Source of the DNA: Phycisphaerae bacterium
Lineage (GTDB): Bacteria > Planctomycetota > Phycisphaerae > UBA1845 > PWPN01
Length of the DNA: 54,861 nucleotides
Reading direction: 5' to 3'
Assembly: GCA_018003015.1 (NCBI GenBank)
Contig: JAGNEZ010000044.1
Span: forward strand, 1-54,861
Part shown: positions 16,751-27,233 of the stretch, piece after piece
How positions within the stretch are numbered: the first letter of the stretch is position 1
How the letters are laid out: each line of letters starts with the position of its first letter
Notes under the pieces: model-generated
Told to the model about the DNA's origin: nothing
Seen by the model: only the letters and a program-made list of their open reading frames with translations
Databases searched by the model: none
Made by a program: the position numbers and the translations under genes

Positions 16751-17995
16751 TTAGAACATCATCCCATGCTGGAACGCGGGATCCGCCGCGATTCCCTCGG
16801 GAAGCACCAATGCCGGGGCGTTGCGGGCCCGGCTCTCGAAACCCAGCTCCCAGAACAGCGAACGGTAGCTACCCCGCCCCGCGGTCGCAACCAGGTAGTC
16901 AGCATCCAGATCCACTGCGGCGCGCAGCGCGGCGATGAGCAGGGCGCGCACCAGAGGTATCTCCCCGTCTCCAGCATCCGTCGCCATCTCCTCCGCACCG
17001 CCCGGCGGAGCTTTAGATGACAACAGCGGAGAACACCGGGGGGCGGCCAGTTCCTCAACGAACGCGATACGCCGCTCATCCAGTCGCTCACAGAACACAA
17101 CCGCCCCTCCCAGGGCACGGCCATCGAACCGGCGAAGGACCAGCACGCGGGTATCTTTCCACTCCGGATGGCGAGCGTATCGCCAATCCAGATAATCGGC
17201 GGACCAGTCAATCGAGCACGTTGCACCATAGGAAAGCCGCATCGACGCGAGGTACTCCAACTCCTGAATCGCAGGCGCTTCCAGAACCTCGAGTCGGCAG
17301 CCGGCCGGTAGCGGCAGCCGCGGTCGGATCCCCAGCAGTCGGCAACATCCGCCCGCCGCACGGCCGAGTATCGCCCCTGCCTTGGCTCGTAGCAGCCGAC
17401 GGACAACCCGGCTTGCGCCCCCCAGGCAGGACCGTATCTCCTGTTCGGGCGTTGCCGGGGCACGCCACAGTTCGCGGGTCCATTCGACCGGCCGACATCC
17501 GTAGCGACCAAGCACCGCCCCGGTCTTGTCATTGGCTGTGGTCGCCAATGGCACCTGACCCTCGGCGGCGGCCATGAACGCCTGGGCCAACCTGAGCCCA
17601 GCGAAAAGACCACCACGAGCGGTCGCTTCAGGACTCACCACGTAGTCGGCGACGACCTGGCCGATGCGCCGCCCTGCTCCGACCCGCAAAGGCAAATACA
17701 CCACCCCGATATGTCCAACCACGGCCTCGCCGTCCACCAGGACCCAACCGGCGGGTCGCTGCCCACGGAAGGGATTGTCCAGACACTGCCAGCGCCAGCG
17801 GCGAAGCCAGCGCTGCAGATCGGAAAGCGTGCCGGGAATCGCGGCGCGCAGCCTGGCATGAACGGCCGGCCCGTCTTCGAGCCGGACCTCTCGGAGATCA
17901 AGTGGCGGCGCGGCTGGATGCGTAGCCGGAGCGACGCCCGAGGCGACATCGGCATTTGATTCCGGGGAGCAGGTTTCAGCAGCCAAAGCGCTCAT
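16751..17995 (-). CDS. GNAT-family N-acetyltransferase (probably two GNAT-like halves)
   Basis: The 414-residue protein contains a GNAT-like first half (residues 30-170: VLVDGEAVVGHIGVVYLPLRVG, then VVADYVVSPEATARGGLFAGLRLAQAFM for the acetyl-CoA site). The second half has RRFDGRALGGAVVFCERLD and DADYLVATAGRGSYRSLFWELGFESRA, resembling a second GNAT fold. It begins 4 nt after the deacetylase stop, so both are translated together. Similar proteins occur in exopolysaccharide gene sets, where they acylate sugars or peptides. The substrate is unknown. Confidence 0.7.
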   Translation of the reverse strand: MSALAAETCSPESNADVASGVAPATHPAAPPLDLREVRLEDGPAVHARLRAAIPGTLSDLQRWLRRWRWQCLDNPFRGQRPAGWVLVDGEAVVGHIGVVYLPLRVGAGRRIGQVVADYVVSPEATARGGLFAGLRLAQAFMAAAEGQVPLATTANDKTGAVLGRYGCRPVEWTRELWRAPATPEQEIRSCLGGASRVVRRLLRAKAGAILGRAAGGCCRLLGIRPRLPLPAGCRLEVLEAPAIQELEYLASMRLSYGATCSIDWSADYLDWRYARHPEWKDTRVLVLRRFDGRALGGAVVFCERLDERRIAFVEELAAPRCSPLLSSKAPPGGAEEMATDAGDGEIPLVRALLIAALRAAVDLDADYLVATAGRGSYRSLFWELGFESRARNAPALVLPEGIAADPAFQHGMMF

Positions 17996-17999
17996 GGCA

Positions 18000-19085
18000 T
18001 CACCGGATGAATCGCTGCCAGAGGACGAAGAGTATCCGACCGACCGATGGGCCGACGATGAGCCGCGGCAGACGCATCAGGTTCTGCTTCTGACAGTAAA
18101 CGGCGTTCTGCTCAAGCGTCAGTGCACAGTGATAGCCCATATCGAGGAGGAGCTGCTCGGTGACGGGTGACATGCTCGCTTCACGGCCATACGGATACGA
18201 GAAGTGCGGACTGTGAGGACCCACTCGCTGCATGAGCAGCTCGCGAGCGCCGACGACTTCGTGCAGAACAAGATCCGGGTCCTGAGGGGCAAGGGCTATG
18301 TGGCTCAGCCCATGACTTCCGACATCGACTCCGGCGACAATGAGATCCTTGACCTGCGCCCAGGTCATCGGACTGAAGTCGGCGTATCGGGCTCGGAGGG
18401 TCTGAAGCTCGTCGAGCGAGTACTGGTCGTAAAGTTCCTGGAGCCTGCGCACCCGCATGGGTTCGGGCAGATACCGGCAGGTTTCGCGAATCCTGAAGAC
18501 CGCGTCCTGACGCTGCTGAGGTGTGTGCAGGTCGAAACGGATCATCAGGTTGTCCCAGCGAAAACCAATCTGACGCTGGCTGCCCCGGTGAATCAACAGA
18601 TAGAGGTCGTCAGTCCACTGCCGCCCACCCGTCTCAATGAGCATGGCGGGCACGAAAGCCGACCAGGGTATTCGCATCGCGGCCATCTCGCCGGCCACAA
18701 CGCTGTGATTGGTGACGTAGCCGTCGTCAAAGGTGATGATCACGCTTCTGGGCGGTGGCGAACGCCGTTCGCGAATGGCGGCCACCAACTCGGCCAGACT
18801 GATCACGTTGAACGAGCGACGGAGGAGCTTGAGCAACCGGCGGAAGTGGTGGAGTTCCATCGCCTCCGATTCCACCTCGGGGTCACGGCTGTGCGCAATG
18901 ACGCCGTGCAGGCAGAGAATCGCGGCACGATGGGTAATATCCGGCAGGGAGTTGTGTGCTCGCGTGAGTTCCATGGCCCGACCCAGCCCCTGGCGAATGA
19001 AGCGGCCCTGCCGCGGGGGTAGGGCCGCGGCTCGACTCTCGGCTCGCCAGGACAAAGCAGAGAAGACTCGGTGTCGAAGTCGCAT
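18000..19085 (-). CDS. Polysaccharide deacetylase (NodB domain, CE4)
   Basis: The 361-residue protein has the NodB motifs TFDDGY (D120, D121) and the metal-binding SHGLSH (H258, H262), with PYGREA later as motif 3. A helical insert of about 100 residues separates the first two motifs, as in deacetylases of exopolysaccharide loci. The family removes N-acetyl groups from polysaccharides using a divalent metal. There is no clear signal peptide; the N-terminus is basic. It follows the E2 gene after 180 nt and is directly followed by the GNAT gene. Confidence 0.88.
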   Translation of the reverse strand: MRLRHRVFSALSWRAESRAAALPPRQGRFIRQGLGRAMELTRAHNSLPDITHRAAILCLHGVIAHSRDPEVESEAMELHHFRRLLKLLRRSFNVISLAELVAAIRERRSPPPRSVIITFDDGYVTNHSVVAGEMAAMRIPWSAFVPAMLIETGGRQWTDDLYLLIHRGSQRQIGFRWDNLMIRFDLHTPQQRQDAVFRIRETCRYLPEPMRVRRLQELYDQYSLDELQTLRARYADFSPMTWAQVKDLIVAGVDVGSHGLSHIALAPQDPDLVLHEVVGARELLMQRVGPHSPHFSYPYGREASMSPVTEQLLLDMGYHCALTLEQNAVYCQKQNLMRLPRLIVGPSVGRILFVLWQRFIR

Positions 19086-19265
19086 AAGGTCTTGTGAAGA
19101 CGTACGTTATACCTCGCTGGTCCAAGGCCGGCCGTCGCTGGCCGGCGATGACACACCCAAACGGCACAGACCGACCCAGGCTCCATGCTTGTTATCGGAT
19201 GATGCGGATCGAAGGTCGCGATCACGGAGGATGGAATCGACTCGTACGGAACGGTCACCCAGTTA
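19086..19265 (-). promoter_or_regulatory. Gap inside the glycan gene set with a GC-rich inverted repeat
   Basis: A perfect 7-bp stem (gccggcc 19127-19133, ggccggc 19140-19146, loop gtcgct) lies about 40 nt before the deacetylase start. TATAAC (minus) is present near 19110, but no fitting -35 is seen. It may be a processing or attenuation point within the operon. Confidence 0.3.
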
Positions 19266-20459
19266 TCAGACGTCGAGGCTCTCTAGAGCAAGCCGGGCGG
19301 CGTCCAAGGCAGCGGCAGCCTCCCAGCCGTCCATCAGACCGTGGTCGTAGGATAGGCACAAGGTCATCTCCGCCCGGACGGCGAGTTGACCGTCGCGAAC
19401 CGTGGCTGTCTGATGAACCGCTCCAGCGGTCAGGATCGCCGACTGATAGGCGTTCTGCAGCCCGACGTGGAACCTGACCGGCTGATCGGCAAGGACGGAC
19501 ACGGTCATGCATGCTCCAAGCTGGTCGGCGGGCTTGAGCTGGCCGCGGAAGACGGCCATGCTCAGAGCAACACACTGGCGAGCGAGGTCTTCAAGGGACT
19601 GGCTGTCCACCGACCGAATGACGGGCGTGAACAGGCGGCCGTCGGGACTCCGGGCCGTAAAAGCGATTGCCGGAGTATGGTAGCTGAACACCTTTCGCCC
19701 GAGCCGAAACGACGCCAGTGGGGGGACGGCGCGAACCGCGGCGGCGGCCGCATGGAGCAGGAGCGGAACAGGCCCGGTGACAAGCCCTGCCTCGCGCCCG
19801 GCGCCCAGCCAGCGTCCGGCCGCGGTCATATCCACGTCCATGTTGACGAAGGCGCTTACCAGCCGGGACTGGGTGACGGTCAGATGGCGGGCCACGGACC
19901 ACTGGTGATCCGACAGGTCGGGGCCATGATCGACGAGCGGCGCCAAGAGCGGTGGGAGTTCTCCCCTGTCCGGCCGAGTGGACTCAACCCCGGGGGCTGG
20001 GTGTTCGGCCAGGTAACGCTCGACATCCTCGCGACGGATCCTGCCCGGGGCGCCAACCTGGGCCAAGTCCACACCGTGCCGGCGAGCCAGTTCAATCGCT
20101 CCGGCTGTGGCATCAACGGGGGTTTCCAGGCCCCGAGAACCAGCGGTCAATACCTCCGGGACCCGAGGGTGGGTGGTGAGATGCTGCTCGATTGCCTCCA
20201 AGGAGGGGCCAAGGAAACCAATCGTCTGGCCAATGGCGACCACCTCGCCGACCTCCACCATGGGCCGGAAGACGCCGCTGGCCGGTGACGGCATATCCCC
20301 TACCGATTTACTGGTCTCGACCTCGCAAAGGGGCTGCCCTTCGACCGCCTGTCCCCCGTCGGGCACATGCCAGCCCAGCAGTATCACCTCCTCGTCATTA
20401 ACGTTGACCTGCGGCATGGTGACCGCGACGACGCCGGGAACCGAGTCAGCTGCGCTCAC
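19266..20459 (-). CDS. Free-standing E2 dihydrolipoamide acyltransferase-like protein
   Basis: The 397-residue protein starts with a lipoyl domain (residues 10-80, lipoylation site K51 in EVETSKS). A short E3-binding-like domain follows (AIELARRHGVDLAQVGAPGRIRREDVERYL, about 140-170), then a CAT-fold catalytic domain ending in SYDHGLMDG, which holds the active-site His (H373) and Asp (D377). GTG at 20459 overlaps the stop of the acyl carrier gene (GTGA), which rules out the longer frame. No E1 or E3 gene is nearby, and it sits with acyl carrier, deacetylase and GNAT genes. It may move an acyl group in a surface-glycan or lipid pathway rather than serve pyruvate dehydrogenase (inference). Confidence 0.85.
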   Translation of the reverse strand: MSAADSVPGVVAVTMPQVNVNDEEVILLGWHVPDGGQAVEGQPLCEVETSKSVGDMPSPASGVFRPMVEVGEVVAIGQTIGFLGPSLEAIEQHLTTHPRVPEVLTAGSRGLETPVDATAGAIELARRHGVDLAQVGAPGRIRREDVERYLAEHPAPGVESTRPDRGELPPLLAPLVDHGPDLSDHQWSVARHLTVTQSRLVSAFVNMDVDMTAAGRWLGAGREAGLVTGPVPLLLHAAAAAVRAVPPLASFRLGRKVFSYHTPAIAFTARSPDGRLFTPVIRSVDSQSLEDLARQCVALSMAVFRGQLKPADQLGACMTVSVLADQPVRFHVGLQNAYQSAILTAGAVHQTATVRDGQLAVRAEMTLCLSYDHGLMDGWEAAAALDAARLALESLDV

Positions 20460-20704
20460 TTGACCCCCTTGGCTGCCAGCCGCTCGAGGATCATGGCCAC
20501 ACTGCCCAAGGTCACGATCTCGTCGTTGTCGAAGGTGATCTTGAAGGTCTTCTCCAACTCGAGGATCAATGACAGGTGGGTCACCGACGTCCACGCGGGC
20601 AACTGGGCGGCAGTGGTCAGCTCGGTAATCGACGAGACTGCGGCAGCATCCAGCTTCATCGCGCGGGCCATGCACTGGCGGACAATGTCGAGATGAAGAG
20701 TCAT
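20456..20704 (-). CDS. Acyl carrier protein
   Basis: The 82-residue helical acidic protein has WTSVTHLSLILELEKTF, the counterpart of the WDSLxHLxLILALEEEF carrier motif. The serine that would receive phosphopantetheine is present, but the usual preceding Asp is Thr. The stop overlaps the GTG of the E2 gene by four bases. It is a specialised carrier rather than the fatty-acid AcpP, judged by its position and the altered motif. Confidence 0.85.
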   Translation of the reverse strand: MTLHLDIVRQCMARAMKLDAAAVSSITELTTAAQLPAWTSVTHLSLILELEKTFKITFDNDEIVTLGSVAMILERLAAKGVK

Positions 20705-20802: not shown

Positions 20803-21960
20803 TCAATCCAGCCACTGCTTGCGGTCCTTGATCTTCATCGGCACGTACTCTCCGGTCAAGTAAGTCAGCCGCTTGTTGAGCAGGGCTTCGACCTCCATCT
20901 TGAAGCCGTTCTGCATCATCTTGCGGATCTCCCTTTCCCAGTCGCGCTTGCCCTTGAACCAAGGATAGGAGAGGATCTGCTTGGCCCGCTTGACGTCCTG
21001 GTCGTTGAGGCCGATCTTGACGTCGTCGCTGAGACCGCATCGTTCATAGTCAAAACTGGAGACGCCGATGAAGACCGCCTGGGGCACGGCCATGCGTTGG
21101 CTCTCGTAAGCCAGGTTGATCGAGCCCTGCTTGATGACCGAGTAGATGTAGTAACCCCAGGGATCGTTATCCAGCAGGCAATACAATGGCAGCTTGAGTT
21201 CATCGTGCATCCGACGAAGAAGTCGACGCATGCCCCGCGCGGGCTGGCCGCCGCCATGGGTCACGATGCAGTGGTGCTTCTCGTGGTAGCGATCCTCGTA
21301 GAAACGGCGCCAGACGGTGTCCTTTTCGACATGGAGGATGTACTTGGCGGTACACTTTCTGAATTGAATCATGTCCGGCTCGACGATGCTTGGCACCGGG
21401 TAGCCGGCCGAGCCCATCTTCATGCAATCGAGCGTGTTGCCGTCATCGACCAGCGTAATCGGCCCGACCAGGTTGCCGCGGTTGCTGGCATAGACGTGCA
21501 GTTCCTCGCGCAGCGTGTCAATGCAGACCTCGAGATCCTCGATAATCGGATCAGACTCTTCCTGGTCGTTGAAGGTCTTCTCCTTGGTTCCCGCGACGTC
21601 GTGCTTGGCAAGGTAGTAGAGTGAACGAATCGAGGCGGTCTTGTTCTCCTCAATCAAGGTCTTGCACTGGGCGGCGATAAGCAGAGTCTGCATGAACTTC
21701 TTGGCCATGCTCTTGTCGAAGAAGTGACGCGACTGCGTGGCCCCGCCCATCTCGATAATCGCCCGCTTGGGATCGAATCGGACGTTGGAGAGAGCCCGGA
21801 TGGGGATGTCGAAGTTCGGGTCCTTCTTCCTGGCTGCGGCGGCGATGACCATCTCGGCAAGGCTCTCGATCTTCTTGGTCGTAATCCCAGCCTCGGAACG
21901 AGTACGAGCGGTGCGCCGATCCGTGCCGGTTTTCCCGGGCGTCGTCCGTTTCTTCGCCAA
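20803..21960 (-). CDS. top6A: DNA topoisomerase VI subunit A (Spo11 family)
   Basis: The 385-residue protein carries the DNA-cleaving tyrosine motif SIRSLYY (Y115/Y116) in a winged-helix domain. The Toprim metal site is formed by E212 (HVEKD) and the acidic pair in DNDPWGYYIYS (264-272). The length matches archaeal Top6A. The enzyme makes double-strand breaks and passes another duplex with subunit B. The start is TTG at 21960, fixed by an excellent AAGGAGGAG Shine-Dalgarno 4-6 nt upstream. Subunit B lies 3.2 kb away on the same strand. ACP starts 98 nt downstream. Confidence 0.93.
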   Translation of the reverse strand: MAKKRTTPGKTGTDRRTARTRSEAGITTKKIESLAEMVIAAAARKKDPNFDIPIRALSNVRFDPKRAIIEMGGATQSRHFFDKSMAKKFMQTLLIAAQCKTLIEENKTASIRSLYYLAKHDVAGTKEKTFNDQEESDPIIEDLEVCIDTLREELHVYASNRGNLVGPITLVDDGNTLDCMKMGSAGYPVPSIVEPDMIQFRKCTAKYILHVEKDTVWRRFYEDRYHEKHHCIVTHGGGQPARGMRRLLRRMHDELKLPLYCLLDNDPWGYYIYSVIKQGSINLAYESQRMAVPQAVFIGVSSFDYERCGLSDDVKIGLNDQDVKRAKQILSYPWFKGKRDWEREIRKMMQNGFKMEVEALLNKRLTYLTGEYVPMKIKDRKQWLD

Positions 21961-22405: not shown

Positions 22406-22757
22406 GCGGGAAGAGTAGGCTGGCTGTTTGAGGCTGACAGCCTAAGGCGGAGATAGTGACGGCAGCGTCCTGGAGGCATTGCCGGTCCCTTGGCAGGCCG
22501 GCAAGCGAGGGGGCAGCGGCCGGCGGTCTTTCGTGCTGTTCCTGTGCGGCGTCTCGTGCTGGCCGCGTGGGGTGTTTTCTGCCAGATGGGCGGCGGCCAT
22601 GCTCGGCCACCGTCCGTGACCGGGCATGTCGAACGCGACGCCCGGGCACGGGCAGGTCTGCGCGGACGACTCGCGGCCACGGCGCCGTCCGGCAGAACTG
22701 GCCCGCCAGAGGATGGGCAACCTGCACCTCGACGACTCCCCGCGTGGAGGAGATTCG

Positions 22758-25058
22758 ATGAATGGGGCGGCAAGAACAGCCGTGTTCTGCGGTCTGATGG
22801 CTCCGCTGGCTTGTGCGGCAACTGCCTGGGCCGCACCGCTGCTAACCCCCGGCGATTTCGTCATCGCGATCGACCTTGATCCGGACGGCACGACCAGCAG
22901 GTATCCGGCCAAGGAAGCGCCGGCGATGGCGTGCGACGCCCTCCTGAACACAAAGTATCTGAACTACTCTATGGAGAACTCGGGGCTCATCATCACACCG
23001 GCATCGGGGCCGTCAGTTGTCCAGAGCATCCGATTCTCGACCGCAAACGATCATGAGGAACGCGATCCCGCCTCCTACGAGCTTTATGGGACGAATGCCG
23101 CGATCGCCAGCACCGACAACAGCGACGGTGAACAGGAAAGCTGGACATTGATCGCGTCGGGAACGCTGGTACTTCCCAGTGCAAGACAGGCGGTCGACCG
23201 GGCGATGGACTTCGCCAATACCGCCAGCTATACCTCGTACAAGGTCATCTTTCCCACACTCAAGCGCGTCACCACGCCCAACTCCATGCAGATTGCCGAG
23301 ATCGAGTTGTTTACCGGCGCCGGAGGAACGGGCACCCCTGTGCTCGGGACCGGCGGAACAGTCCTGGCCATCGACCGAGACCTCGTGCCACAGAGTTCAT
23401 ACCCGGCGGGCGAGGCTCCGGCATTCGCCATCGACAATCGCCCCAACAAGTACCTGAATTACGGCAAGGCTAACACCGGCCTGATCGTGGCCCCCTGGGT
23501 CGGTCCGACCGTGGTCACCTCTCTGCAGATCATGACCGCCAACGATGACGCCAACCGAGACCCCTCGACTTACGCTCTGTACGGCACCAACGAGGCGGTC
23601 CTGAGCACGGACAACAGCCGGGGCAACAAGGAGAACTGGACGCTGATCGCCTCGGGTGATCTGGCCCTGCCGGCCGATCGCAACGTCCTGGCGCCGGCAG
23701 TGACGTTCGAGAACGCCATGCCCTATCTCGCCTATCGCCTGGTGTTCCCCACGCTGCGCGACGCGGTGACCGCCGATTCCATGCAGATCGGCGAAGTCCG
23801 GTTCTGCGGAACAATGATCGAGGCACCGCCCATCCCTCTCCTGGCCCCCGGCGATCCGATCCTCGCAGTCGACTCCGACCCAGACACCTCGATGAGCAAT
23901 TATCCGGAGGTCGAGACGCCCGCGATGGCCTGTGACGGAGACCTCGCCACCAAGTACCTGAACTTCGCCAAGGAGAATTCCGGCCTGATCGCCGCGTCGA
24001 CGCCCGGCGCTTCCATCGTCCGAAGCCTGCGGCTGATCACCGGCAATGATGCCCCGGAACGGGACCCCGTGATTGTCGAGGTCTACGGCACGAACGCGCC
24101 GATTGCCAGTGCCGACAACAGCTGGGGGACTGCCGAACCGTGGACGCTGATCGCGTCCAGCGGACTGGAACCGCCCATCGACCGGACAACCGTCTATCCG
24201 GTGTTCAACTTCGCGAACGAAACCAGCTATAACTTCTATAAAATTCTATTTTCATCGATCAAGGACACCGCGACCGCCAACGCGATGCAGGTCACCGAAA
24301 TCGGACTCTATACCGAAGCAGACGCGGCGGGCACCAACGTGCTGCTCGGCAGTCCCGCGGTGCTGGCGGTGGACGCCGATGTCCTGCCGGTGAGCTCCTA
24401 CCCCGCGGCCGAGACACCAAGCTGCGCCATCGACCGCTCGCTGGCCAAATACCTGAACTTCGGCATGGAGAACTCGGGCTTCATTGTCACGCCTGCGGCC
24501 GGCCGGACGATCGTCAACGTGATTCGGATGACCAGCGCCAACGACTGGAACGTCCGCGACCCCATCTTGTGGACACTGTACGGTACCCTGGACGCGGTGG
24601 CCAGCACCGACAACAGCCAAGGCGACGCAGAACAATGGACGCTGATTGCATCCGGTGCCAGCGGTCTGCCGACCGACCGCAACCGCCTGGGAGCACCCGT
24701 CTCCTTCGGGAATACCGCGGCATACGACTCCTACAAGCTGGTGTTCAGCCGATTGCGCGACCCGGGGACGGCCAACGCCGTGCAGGTGGCCGAGATCCAG
24801 TTCTACGGCGCCATCCTGGGCTGCCCAGCACCTTTCGCCGATGCCGACGGGGACGGCGATGTGGATCAGGTGGACTTCGGCGAATACCAGGCCTGCTTCA
24901 CCGGCCGGGGCGGCGCCAACTCGACCTACGAATGCCGGTGCTTCGACCGGGACAACGACGGCGACATCGATCTCGTGGACTTCGCTGAGTTCCAGAAGTG
25001 CGCGACCGGACCGGCGGTCACCTGGACCCAGGATCTCCTGCCGGACTGCGCCCCGTGA
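22758..25058 (+). CDS. Secreted protein with four discoidin-like repeats and a dockerin-like tail
   Basis: The 766-residue protein begins with a signal peptide (MNGAARTAVFCGLM..., cleavage near AWA) after a GGAGGAG site, which fixes the ATG at 22758. Four repeats of about 160 residues follow (roughly nt 22839-23330, 23335-23815, 23825-24315, 24340-24820). Each has a signature such as KYLNxxxENSGxI, TANDxxxRDPxxxxLYGTN, STDNSxGxxExWTLIASG and an EIxxY end. This pattern resembles F5/8-type C (discoidin) carbohydrate-binding folds. The tail has two calcium loops (DADGDGDVDQVDF, DRDNDGDIDLVDF) and cysteines, matching the tail at 113-1408. It probably binds glycans outside the cell; no enzyme domain is present. 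It lies between the two topoisomerase VI genes on the other strand. Confidence 0.82.
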   Translation: MNGAARTAVFCGLMAPLACAATAWAAPLLTPGDFVIAIDLDPDGTTSRYPAKEAPAMACDALLNTKYLNYSMENSGLIITPASGPSVVQSIRFSTANDHEERDPASYELYGTNAAIASTDNSDGEQESWTLIASGTLVLPSARQAVDRAMDFANTASYTSYKVIFPTLKRVTTPNSMQIAEIELFTGAGGTGTPVLGTGGTVLAIDRDLVPQSSYPAGEAPAFAIDNRPNKYLNYGKANTGLIVAPWVGPTVVTSLQIMTANDDANRDPSTYALYGTNEAVLSTDNSRGNKENWTLIASGDLALPADRNVLAPAVTFENAMPYLAYRLVFPTLRDAVTADSMQIGEVRFCGTMIEAPPIPLLAPGDPILAVDSDPDTSMSNYPEVETPAMACDGDLATKYLNFAKENSGLIAASTPGASIVRSLRLITGNDAPERDPVIVEVYGTNAPIASADNSWGTAEPWTLIASSGLEPPIDRTTVYPVFNFANETSYNFYKILFSSIKDTATANAMQVTEIGLYTEADAAGTNVLLGSPAVLAVDADVLPVSSYPAAETPSCAIDRSLAKYLNFGMENSGFIVTPAAGRTIVNVIRMTSANDWNVRDPILWTLYGTLDAVASTDNSQGDAEQWTLIASGASGLPTDRNRLGAPVSFGNTAAYDSYKLVFSRLRDPGTANAVQVAEIQFYGAILGCPAPFADADGDGDVDQVDFGEYQACFTGRGGANSTYECRCFDRDNDGDIDLVDFAEFQKCATGPAVTWTQDLLPDCAP
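24822..25040 (+). repeat. Dockerin-like EF-hand tail, second copy of the module at about 1185-1370
   Basis: Both copies read C-P-x-P-F-A-D-A-D-x-D-G-D-V-D-Q-x-D-F-G, then CFTG, CRCFDRD and FQxCAT. The order and cysteines are conserved while the rest of the two proteins is unrelated. Confidence 0.8.
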
Positions 25059-25175: not shown

Positions 25176-27233
25176 TCAGCCGGCTCGCTGGAACAACTCG
25201 CCGGCCGTCTCGACGTCGCGGTTGACGACCACGGTGTGCTCGCCGAGGTCTTCGCCGTCGTCGTCATCTCGGATCGGCCGGCCGTGCTCATCCAGCCGCT
25301 CGTCCGCCCGGCAGGTCACCTTCTGAGCGATGGCCACGAGATTGCCGGTCAGTTCCTCGCGATTGATCCGCTTGATGACCGCGCAGGCATCGACTACTTC
25401 CTTGATGTAGCGCTCGAAGACGCTTCGCCGTTCGCCCTCGTACTTCTGCTTGCGCCGGCGGTTGAGGTAGCTCGAGAGTTTCCGCCCGCACTCCTGCAGG
25501 CCGAGCCTGATCTCCTGGCGAATCTCGTCGTAGTCGGCAATGGCCTCCTTGGACTCGGAAGTGAACGGCACCCAGACGCTGGCCATGTGGACCATGACCA
25601 CCAGGGGAGCCTGGGGCAGAGCCCCGCTGCTCTGCGACAGGCCGTAGCGCCGCCAGTCAAGGTCGAGCACGGCCTTGTAGATGCAGCACGCCGACTGCTG
25701 ATAGAGCAACGGCACGCGATTGGCGAACCGGATCACTCGGGTGGTGGGAACGTTGCGCGAATCGTTGCCGTTGACGACCTTGCCTCGGCTGACCTTGACT
25801 TCTTCGACCGGGGCCGCCTCCGCTTGTTTGGGATCGGCCCCCAACTCGCCGCCGTAGGCCAGACCGACTTCCATCTGGAACGGGTTGCCCCGATAGACGG
25901 CCGGCGGACGGGTCGAGGCGGTGAAGAACTCGGCTCTCACGCCCTTGAGCAGGCCGGCCAGGATCTGCTCCGCCCCGATCGGCGAGAGGCAGTTGGTCGG
26001 GGGGCCCATGAACCTGGTCTTCTGAACGGCTTCGTACAGCTTCTCCGCCTCCTGGCGGGCAATCCGCTTGGGGTGTGCCCGGGGATTGAGCTTGGCGGCA
26101 TGACAGATCTGTTCGGCGGTCTGAGACCCGACTCGACAGAACTCGCTCTGCAGGAAACCGCTCAGCCAGTGCGAACCCGTCTCGTGAAGCATCTTGATGA
26201 GCATGCCCAGCTCCACCCCCAACGGATGTGGCTTGATCTCGGTGGGCTGAGTGGGAACGGTGAGCGTTCCCCGGTCGAAGAGCTGGCGCTCGCCAACCGG
26301 GGGCGTGTAGATGAACTTCGCGTGGGGGTTGGCAATCGCGGTCTGTTCCATGTACTCTTCGACCGACTGGCGGCCCTTGTTGTAGGAACCGACCAGCTCG
26401 ATCTCGACCTGGGTGCCGTGGTCCCATTCGACCTGCCGGTTCTCGTCCTTGACGATGTTGGGCTCGTTCTTCTTGGTGTCAATCTGAATTTCGTAGTAAT
26501 GAGCCTCCTTCTTCGGTGAGGTCCGCGAGGTCACCTTGATGCTCTTGCCGGTGGTCAGCAGGCCGTACATGCCCGCCGCGGAAATACCGATGCCCTGCTG
26601 GCCGCGCGACATCTTGAGGCGGTGGAACTTCGACCCGTACAACAGCTTGCCAAACACGTTGGGGATCTGCTGTTTGACGATGCCCGGGCCGTTATCCTTG
26701 ACGACGACCCGGTAGCGTTCCTCCGCGGTCTGAACGAGGGCCACCTCGATCTCGGGCAGAAAACCGGCCTCCTCGCAGGCGTCCAGGGCGTTGTCCACCG
26801 CCTCCTTGACGCACATCAGCAGGGCCTTCCGCTTGTTGTCGAAGCCGAGCAGGTGCCGGTTCTTGGCGAAGAACTCGGAGACGCTGATGTTCCGCTGTTG
26901 CTTGGCCATACTCTCGGCCGTCGCCCGGGCAGCGCCCGCCTTGCCGGACCGGGCCAATACCGACTCGACGGTCAGGGTCTCAGGTGAGGTGGATGCAGGC
27001 GAAGTGGACCCGGTCGCGGCAACGGCATTGGAAGCTGTCGCCGACTTGCCCGAGGTCGGGCCACTCCTCGCCGGCGCCGCAGCCGGCTTGCCGGCGGGCC
27101 TGACCGGCATCTTCTTCTCGGGCTTCTTTGCGGATGCCGTGGACCTGGAGCCGGCCGATTTCCCGGCCCTCTCCCCCCCTGTAGCGAATGAAAACGACAA
27201 CTGTTTACCTTCGGTGGATGCCATCTCTGTCAT
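25176..27233 (-). CDS. top6B: DNA topoisomerase VI subunit B (GHKL ATPase)
   Basis: The 685-residue protein contains the Bergerat ATP fold with N box KEAVDNALDA (E144, N148), G1 DNGPGI (180-185) and G2 GQQGIG (211-216). The H2TH-like middle region and transducer domain follow. The extra 110 residues at the start are rich in Ala, Ser, Lys and Pro and likely disordered; archaeal subunits lack them. ATP binding closes the B dimer to capture the DNA passed through the break made by subunit A. ATG at 27233 or 27224 could be used. Confidence 0.93.
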   Translation of the reverse strand: MTEMASTEGKQLSFSFATGGERAGKSAGSRSTASAKKPEKKMPVRPAGKPAAAPARSGPTSGKSATASNAVAATGSTSPASTSPETLTVESVLARSGKAGAARATAESMAKQQRNISVSEFFAKNRHLLGFDNKRKALLMCVKEAVDNALDACEEAGFLPEIEVALVQTAEERYRVVVKDNGPGIVKQQIPNVFGKLLYGSKFHRLKMSRGQQGIGISAAGMYGLLTTGKSIKVTSRTSPKKEAHYYEIQIDTKKNEPNIVKDENRQVEWDHGTQVEIELVGSYNKGRQSVEEYMEQTAIANPHAKFIYTPPVGERQLFDRGTLTVPTQPTEIKPHPLGVELGMLIKMLHETGSHWLSGFLQSEFCRVGSQTAEQICHAAKLNPRAHPKRIARQEAEKLYEAVQKTRFMGPPTNCLSPIGAEQILAGLLKGVRAEFFTASTRPPAVYRGNPFQMEVGLAYGGELGADPKQAEAAPVEEVKVSRGKVVNGNDSRNVPTTRVIRFANRVPLLYQQSACCIYKAVLDLDWRRYGLSQSSGALPQAPLVVMVHMASVWVPFTSESKEAIADYDEIRQEIRLGLQECGRKLSSYLNRRRKQKYEGERRSVFERYIKEVVDACAVIKRINREELTGNLVAIAQKVTCRADERLDEHGRPIRDDDDGEDLGEHTVVVNRDVETAGELFQRAG

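Follow-up and report, generated by a model that had tools for sequence, protein, structure and literature searches.

In quinocarcin biosynthesis, QncN, QncL and QncM have been shown to direct the synthesis and attachment of a two-carbon glycolicacyl unit, and for scleric acid a ketose phosphate has been proposed as the source used by SclQ1-4, four separate proteins of 76, 305, 338 and 386 amino acids that correspond to an acyl carrier protein (ACP), a thiamine diphosphate (ThDP) protein, a pyrimidine/TK-C protein and a lipoyl-acyltransferase (PMC6335953). NapB and NapD homologues are described as forming a hydroxyethyl unit from xylulose-5-phosphate and passing it to the carrier DinT (PMC7570522). 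For pepteridine, the arm of a carrier is proposed to be primed in place of coenzyme A (CoA), with use of the host's E3 (PMC5384830). Here we analyse a 54,861-nucleotide stretch of DNA (the window) from Phycisphaerae bacterium (GCA_018003015.1, contig JAGNEZ010000044.1; GTDB UBA1845, PWPN01), in which genes for a small carrier, an E2-type acyltransferase, a polysaccharide deacetylase and a predicted tandem-GNAT acyltransferase stand together on the minus strand. The explanation that we favour from sequence comparison, at a probability of roughly 0.55, is that this E2 and an unlinked E1 would prime the carrier, and that the deacetylase and the GNAT protein would use it to swap the N-acyl group of an amino sugar. 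Genomes, loci and contigs are numbered below with the prefixes G, L and C; the source genome is G000, or 'own'.

An E2-type acyltransferase beside an unusual carrier

Pfam finds a catalytic domain (2-oxoacid_dh, PF00198; 93.2 bits, cut-off 23) and a lipoyl domain (Biotin_lipoyl; 32.2 bits, cut-off 22.1) in the E2, together with an E3_binding match slightly below its cut-off (22.5 versus 23.7 bits). Lys51, Ser321, His373 and Asp377-Gly378 are invariant in 10 of 10 aligned sequences, as are the small-domain columns A117, A121, A125, G129, G139, D145, V146 and E147. The structural model of the protein matches E2 cores in Foldseek, and one matched PDB entry is titled as a study of the catalytic residues Ser558, His610 and Asn614 of an Azotobacter E2. 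An earlier note, made from the sequence of the window alone, had described lipoyl, E3-binding-like and catalytic domains with intact His and Asp and had suggested a structural comparison; the lipoyl and catalytic domains were confirmed, the small domain scored just short of its threshold, and the comparison returned an ordinary active site. Lys51, the lipoyl lysine (codon at 20,307-20,309), lies within the motif ETSK, not ETDK, and the loop after Ser321 is altered relative to other E2s in the alignment. When 294 genomes of the phylum were searched, with at most six candidates scored per genome, no E2 other than that of the window exceeded 89 bits; the window's own scored 869.

Around its modified serine (Ser40) the carrier reads W-T-S-V-T-H in place of the D-S-L of usual carriers, and W38, T39 and S40 are invariant in all seven aligned sequences. 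Its score against the acyl carrier family PF00550, 16.5 bits, stays below the family cut-off of 20.8. A profile of the carrier's own family finds the solved carrier protein 2lml (E = 3e-7), which we take to be GmACP3 of Geobacter. A paper that cites the GmACP3 structure describes this protein as atypical, and the title that it cites assigns the protein a putative part in making lipopolysaccharide (PMC4847154). The W-T-S motif also occurs in a carrier of Streptomyces NBC_01136. The first scan of planctomycetes for E2-carrier pairs used a profile of the window's own carrier type. That such pairs are absent from other Planctomycetota was ruled out by ordinary DSMD carriers beside the E2s of G247 and G120, so that any claim of absence is limited to the WTS-type carrier.

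The gene set is kept together in nine genomes

Joint occurrence was scored over one fixed draw of 101 relatives. Orthologues of the carrier (at least 123 bits; next 49), the deacetylase (at least 486 bits; next 143) and the GNAT protein (at least 290 bits; next a 105-bit fragment in G299, then 33) fall in the same nine genomes (own, G294, G295, G296, G297, G301, G302, G303 and G305), and E2 orthologues in eight of these (at least 390 bits; next 85). An E1 fusion, introduced below, is found in the nine and in G299 (at least 810 bits), followed by three sister-family genomes at 572-717 bits and then by 240 bits.

Linkage within the set differs between genomes. All four genes stand in one block in own, G294, G295, G296 and G302. 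G301 keeps carrier, E2 and GNAT together, with the deacetylase elsewhere; G303 keeps E2 and GNAT together, with carrier and deacetylase elsewhere. In G297 the carrier adjoins the E2, and the deacetylase-GNAT pair lies at another place; in G305 that pair is found with the carrier elsewhere. The E1 is on a contig different from that of the set in all nine genomes, and no E2 match was found in the 3.2-18 kb around the E1 in 10 of 10 genomes of group f1. Genes that are unlinked on the chromosome yet occur together in genomes point to one function, and joint occurrence despite varied linkage rules out a chance neighbourhood: judged by these orthologue counts, the four genes are not chance neighbours. 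Conservation of the E2 with the carrier, which the earlier note had made a test of its idea, is seen in eight of the nine set-bearing genomes, with the two side by side in seven.

An unlinked E1 is the candidate partner

The own genome (6.86 Mb, 98.7% complete) has PF00198 matches at only two places, the window E2 and one on C51, the latter between an AceE-type E1 (890 amino acids, with a PDH_E1_M domain) and an E3. Of the PF00676 matches, a single one is a full E1 alpha-beta fusion; it lies on C33 (G000:C33:15943-18051), with no E2 in the surrounding 18 kb. The two weaker matches, on C85 and C71, were rejected as further E1s because Pfam shows them to be a transketolase and a DXS. Since the C51 E2 has its own E1 and E3 and a single E1 fusion is left, the window E2 and the C33 E1 form an unmatched pair, and on this bookkeeping they are a natural pair. 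The earlier note had called the E2 an orphan. For the neighbourhood this stands, since neither of the genome's two E1s nor its E3 found a tblastn match in the window; for the genome it fails, since the C33 fusion, an E1 without an adjoining E2, rules out that the E2 is truly partnerless. The note had held that a pyruvate dehydrogenase (PDH) E1 or E3 without its E2 elsewhere in the genome would speak against its idea; the C33 fusion is an E1 of that description, yet it supplies the missing partner and leaves the idea in place.

The kinship of the C33 E1 was examined in a tree of 28 taxa and 575 columns. Partial or broken rows were left out (G295, on a truncated contig; G356, with its alpha part in two frames; L091; G145; G388), and X was entered for stop codons that interrupt a few of the segments of ordinary E1s. 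Supports quoted here come from unrooted newick strings, and rerooting can shift support along the root path. The tree separates 17 E1s (nine of group f1, two of group f100, L089, L090, RenH of the renieramycin system and three from actinomycetes) from 11 ordinary ones with support of 100, and within the 17 it splits f1, f100 and RenH from the rest, again with support of 100. At nine alignment positions the 17 share an invariant residue that none of the 11 has. After trimming of the alignment, the C33 E1 is 48.5% identical to RenH, 43.6-46.0% to the actinomycete E1s and 30.6-41.2% to the ordinary E1s. Among plasmid records, too, its closest E1 match is RenH, on the renieramycin plasmid (identity 44.8%, query coverage 92%); RenI, with lipoyl and catalytic E2 domains, comes after it there. 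RenH presumably has a glycolyl role. At L166:7190-8085 of G356, the E1 alpha part in two frames reflects a frameshift or a sequencing fault.

A search of 392 genomes of the phylum, with at most two candidates scored per genome, found three further full-length E1s at 50% identity or above (G171, G004 and G286), that of G171 with an adjoining E2. E1s in pieces in G420, G098 and G010 (45-52%) have E2-like matches alongside, and directly beside five more distant E1s (G436, G208, G463, G056 and G141; 36-41%) no E2 match was found. At L270:6073-8470 in G004, an E1 of the non-ordinary kind is followed by a 146-amino-acid protein with only a lipoyl-type domain.

A lipoyl-lysine flag and carrier-linked modules elsewhere

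The residue that precedes the lipoyl lysine was compared in 31 aligned E2s. It is Ser in 18 of 18 E2s with an E1 of the RenH-like, non-ordinary kind (for L091, G295 and G356 the E1 was assigned to that kind from its identity and not from the tree), Ser or Gln in three E2s beside an ordinary DSMD carrier (G247, G120 and Leisingera), and Asp in the remaining 10 of 10, near which a scan of frames of 60-200 codons found no carrier. Outside the 31, G171 fits this flag (ETSK) and G004 does not (ENAK).

Fuller modules were found in other lineages. A genome scan with the E2 alignment returned ten loci, seven in the window's planctomycete group and one each in an Actinomycetota metagenome-assembled genome (MAG; L089), an Acidobacteria MAG (L090) and a Bacteroidales MAG (L091, a weak match). 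Carrier, E2, E1alpha and E1beta are consecutive in L089 and L090, and L089 shares the four-base overlap of carrier and E2. Streptomyces NBC_01136 has carrier, E1alpha, E1beta and E2 of 89, 311, 334 and 359 amino acids, with condensation-domain and MbtH genes upstream. In the sister-family genomes G323, G326 and G356, the gene directly after E1 and E2 encodes a protein whose AcpS-type phosphopantetheinyl transferase domain scores 43.6-49.7 bits, and in L091 a protein with such a domain comes directly after the E2; a carrier-arming transferase fused within an E1-E2 operon fits E2s that serve carriers. The pairing of lipoyl arm and carrier is thus suggested by the bookkeeping of E1s and E2s, by the kinship of the E1 and by these modules, and priming of the carrier from the lipoyl arm by E1 and E2 is, on such comparative grounds, the step that we consider quite likely. 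The evidence does not extend to a carrier beside every E1 of the RenH-like kind: around the E1s of S. cattleyicolor, Nonomuraea, RenH, G171, G098, G010 and G420 tblastn detected none, in a weak search that missed even the link between the related Streptomyces and window carriers.

The AcpS-type fusions lie at L164:8475-13813, L165:8398-13577, L070:7318-12411 and L091:656-2733, in three planctomycetes and one Bacteroidales MAG; by a simple count, that of G356 has one hydrophobic stretch. A separate, second kind of carrier-linked dehydrogenase was also seen, an operon of an AMP ligase, E1, E2 and an ordinary DSMD carrier (L080:9552-14598, L081:10118-15227 and L179:2229-7366; two planctomycete genomes and a Leisingera plasmid), whose ligase is annotated acsA in Leisingera and was recognized by eye in the other two.

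Deacetylase, GNAT protein and glycan genes

The deacetylase matches Polysacc_deac_1 (46.4 bits, cut-off 23.1), and Asp120-Asp121, His258 and His262, at positions that we take to be the CE4 metal-binding motif, are invariant in five of five aligned sequences. A simple hydropathy count found no hydrophobic stretch in it, and against the NodB chitooligosaccharide deacetylase equivalog it scored 13.1 bits, short of the cut-off of 240. The 414-amino-acid protein gave no Pfam match (to E 10), NCBIfam match or PDB sequence match. Its AlphaFold2 model (pLDDT only 66, pTM 0.66) resembles N-myristoyltransferases and a mycobacterial tandem GNAT with Z scores near 17 across alignments of 281-301 residues: for the tandem GNAT 7q3a, 17.0 over 281 residues (root-mean-square deviation 3.8), and for the N-myristoyltransferase 4cax, 17.2 over 288 residues (3.9). 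By predicted fold the protein models as a tandem-GNAT acyltransferase, which agrees with the earlier assignment to GNAT without any sequence family match.

Glycosyltransferase or export genes are close to the deacetylase in five genomes; the earlier note had proposed looking for glycosyltransferase or exosortase genes near homologues. The order in G302 is family 2 glycosyltransferase (GT2), membrane protein, GNAT, deacetylase, E2, carrier; in G297 and G305, too, at most a few genes separate the deacetylase-GNAT pair from a GT2 and the membrane protein. In G301 a GT2 is about 2.5 kb from the deacetylase, and in G303 the deacetylase adjoins an ABC-2 type transporter gene. Close to the G303 deacetylase, one more gene looked by eye like a polysaccharide chain-length gene; Pfam gave no match for it, and it was set aside. 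The membrane protein, of 613 amino acids with six hydrophobic stretches by simple count and no family match, was read by eye only as a GT-C-type glycosyltransferase. It has orthologues in eight of the nine set-bearing genomes, and the other 92 have no counterpart (next score 46 bits). Its neighbours in G294 are a Gfo/Idh dehydrogenase (best model UDP-GlcNAc 3-dehydrogenase), a hexapeptide acetyltransferase, a GT2 and a DegT aminotransferase, a combination that fits genes of the 2,3-diamino sugar pathway. The same four neighbours were seen by eye on C20 of the own genome, where the membrane-protein gene is cut by contig ends. The NCBIfam matches for this operon, and those of the G302 GT2 (PgfS 247 bits, then ArnC type 177), are all under their cut-offs.

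The proposed route and its alternatives

The route that we propose would involve five proteins, of which the set in the window is the linked part. The C33 E1 fusion would use thiamine diphosphate to place a short acyl unit, most likely a two-carbon glycolyl from a ketose phosphate, on the lipoyl arm of the E2. The E2 would then hand it to the phosphopantetheine arm of the carrier, not to CoA, and the lipoyl arm would be reoxidized by the E3 beside the ordinary pyruvate dehydrogenase. The deacetylase would take the N-acetyl group off an amino sugar of a surface glycan, and the tandem-GNAT protein would replace it with the acyl group borne by the carrier. Support for amino-sugar N-acylation is weaker than that for carrier priming, and we judge the link slightly favoured. 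Glycolyl as the transferred group is weaker still, a tentative suggestion from the kinship of the E1. That the full sequence runs from a ketose, through E1, E2 and carrier, to an N-glycolyl sugar made without a hydroxylase is a rather unlikely outcome.

Several observations weigh against this route. Some scleric acid reportedly remained after deletion of sclQ1-4 (PMC6335953). No E2 was found in G305, an assembly of 940 contigs that is 77% complete. All bearers of the full set belong to one family, and a small number of events may therefore account for the joint occurrence; with assemblies this fragmented, location on a different contig is no proof that genes are far apart. The E1 and E2 trees disagree, the E1 grouping with f100 and RenH and the E2 with L089 and L090 (support 100), apart from a separate group of RenI, f100 and L091 (support 100); the histories of E1 and E2 therefore differ. 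Of the near E1s in the phylum, that of G004 is adjoined only by a lipoyl protein, and that of G286 is at a contig end. Ordinary-clade E1s also lie beside E2-carrier pairs (Leisingera, G247 and G120), so that a carrier fixes neither the kind of E1 nor the acyl group. The stretch before the AcpS domain in the fusions looks carrier-like by eye, and no Pfam carrier domain was found there. The membrane protein was not found in G295, and in the own genome both it and the amino-sugar operon are on other contigs, which makes the glycan link there indirect.

The closest competitor keeps the route and changes its cargo to acetyl or to another group derived from a 2-oxo acid, branched or hydroxylated. 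The best NCBIfam model for the C33 E1, pyruvate dehydrogenase E1 alpha (213 bits, under its cut-off of 394), points that way, as do the 2-oxo acids proposed for pepteridine and the branched-chain acyl carriers cited in that source (PMC5384830). The C33 E1 is nevertheless nearer to RenH and the actinomycete E1s than to ordinary ones, and an acetyl-for-acetyl swap would presumably be pointless for a deacetylase-acyltransferase pair; we regard a different cargo as credible at somewhat over one chance in three. The acceptor could also differ. If the GNAT protein acylated a non-sugar amine such as a lipid, peptide or amino acid, and the deacetylase acted in another step, it would be in keeping with its top fold matches, N-myristoyltransferases that acylate peptides, and with GNAT-fold enzymes that use acyl-ACP on amino acids. 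This is made improbable by the adjacency of deacetylase and GNAT in seven of the nine genomes (own, G294, G295, G296, G302, G297 and G305) and by the GT2 and membrane-protein genes close by in three of them.

More conservative readings deny the carrier its part. The E2, ordinary in architecture and active site, might serve with the unlinked E1 as a common second 2-oxoacid dehydrogenase that makes acyl-CoA, the carrier being a mere neighbour. We hold this to be quite unlikely in view of the carrier overlap here and in L089, the presence of the carrier in all nine set-bearing genomes, and the division between Ser and Asp before the lipoyl lysine. Least probable by far is a group of unrelated side-by-side genes or a decaying remnant. 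It could draw on the composition of the locus, third-codon-position G+C (GC3) being 0.70-0.73 in the E2, deacetylase and GNAT genes and about 0.8 in most larger flanking genes, and on a promoter scan that was uninformative (0 found, 0.9 expected by chance); the catalytic residues are conserved, however, and the genes occur jointly despite changes in linkage.

Layout of the locus

All four open reading frames (ORFs) of the earlier note were confirmed on the minus strand (Table 1), as was the four-base overlap, in which the carrier stop and the E2 start share GTGA. The gap between E2 and deacetylase is 180 bases and that between deacetylase and GNAT 4 bases. Upstream of the carrier gene on the same strand lies a gene for topoisomerase VI A (20,803-21,960, minus strand; Pfam).

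Table 1. Positions of the gene set and of the E2 domains in the window
Feature	Position	Strand	Basis
Small acyl carrier protein, 82 aa	20456..20704	-	ORF, orthologues, profile match to 2lml
E2-type acyltransferase, 397 aa	19266..20459	-	Pfam domains, Foldseek match of model, orthologues
E2 lipoyl domain, residues 13-80	20220..20423	-	Biotin_lipoyl (Pfam)
E2 E3/E1-binding-like small domain, residues ~117-151	20007..20111	-	E3_binding just under cut-off
E2 catalytic domain, residues 185-394, with Ser321, His373, Asp377	19278..19907	-	2-oxoacid_dh (Pfam)
NodB-type polysaccharide deacetylase, 361 aa	18000..19085	-	Polysacc_deac_1 (Pfam)
Predicted tandem-GNAT acyltransferase, 414 aa	16751..17995	-	Fold match of AlphaFold2 model

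The carrier gene adjoins that for topoisomerase VI A in seven of the nine set-bearing genomes (in G303 by eye). Topoisomerase VI B is encoded at 25,176-27,233 (minus strand; Pfam), so that this bacterium has both subunits. Between the two subunit genes lies an 810-amino-acid ORF with internal repeats (22,626-25,058, plus strand); its alignment with the G294 relative runs in two registers.

Comparison with known systems

The E2 resembles an ordinary PDH or branched-chain 2-oxoacid dehydrogenase E2 in its domains and active site, and differs from it in lacking an E1 or E3 beside it, in overlapping a carrier gene, in its ETSK motif and in the loop after Ser321. For the enzymes downstream of the carrier, rhizobial Nod-factor synthesis serves as a working analogy only: NodB, NodA and NodF are a deacetylase, an N-acyltransferase and a special acyl carrier that act on an amino sugar, and the acyl group there is a fatty acid, which differs from the route proposed here.

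The earlier note knew of no described pathway of this form. For the loading half this does not stand, since lipoamide-to-carrier priming is described for QncL, QncM and QncN, inferred for SclQ1-4 and proposed for pepteridine (PMC6335953, PMC5384830). In the open-licence literature we found no description of such priming feeding glycan enzymes; among the matches listed in that search, papers on carrier loading concerned nonribosomal peptide synthetase (NRPS) or pterin products. If the proposed route is correct, lipoamide charging of a carrier, known from antibiotic assembly lines, would extend to cell-surface sugar chemistry, and some apparent second-copy pyruvate dehydrogenase E2s would serve a carrier, not CoA. 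ETSK in place of ETDK, with a carrier gene alongside, would then be a sequence flag for more cases.

The nearest relatives of the proposed module are QncN/QncL/QncM of quinocarcin, SclQ1-4 of scleric acid, NapB/C/D of naphthyridinomycin and DinS/T/U of dnacin, each with a ThDP E1, a lipoyl E2 and a dedicated carrier. These four were compared by description, and the gene order and sizes of SclQ1-4 resemble those of the Streptomyces NBC_01136 module; renieramycin RenH was compared by sequence, and the E1 of the window's genome grouped with it. The pepteridine pathway of Photorhabdus joins an E1-like protein to an E2 fused to carrier and condensation domains, with a pterin as acceptor by way of the condensation domain. 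Whereas the Qnc, Scl, Nap, Din and Ren genes lie in NRPS clusters, here E1, E2 and carrier do not form one cluster: the E1 gene is unlinked, and beside the E2 and the carrier stand genes for a deacetylase and a predicted tandem GNAT. The loading half is thus already known, and it is the pairing of an unlinked fused E1 with a deacetylase and a tandem-GNAT protein that looks new.

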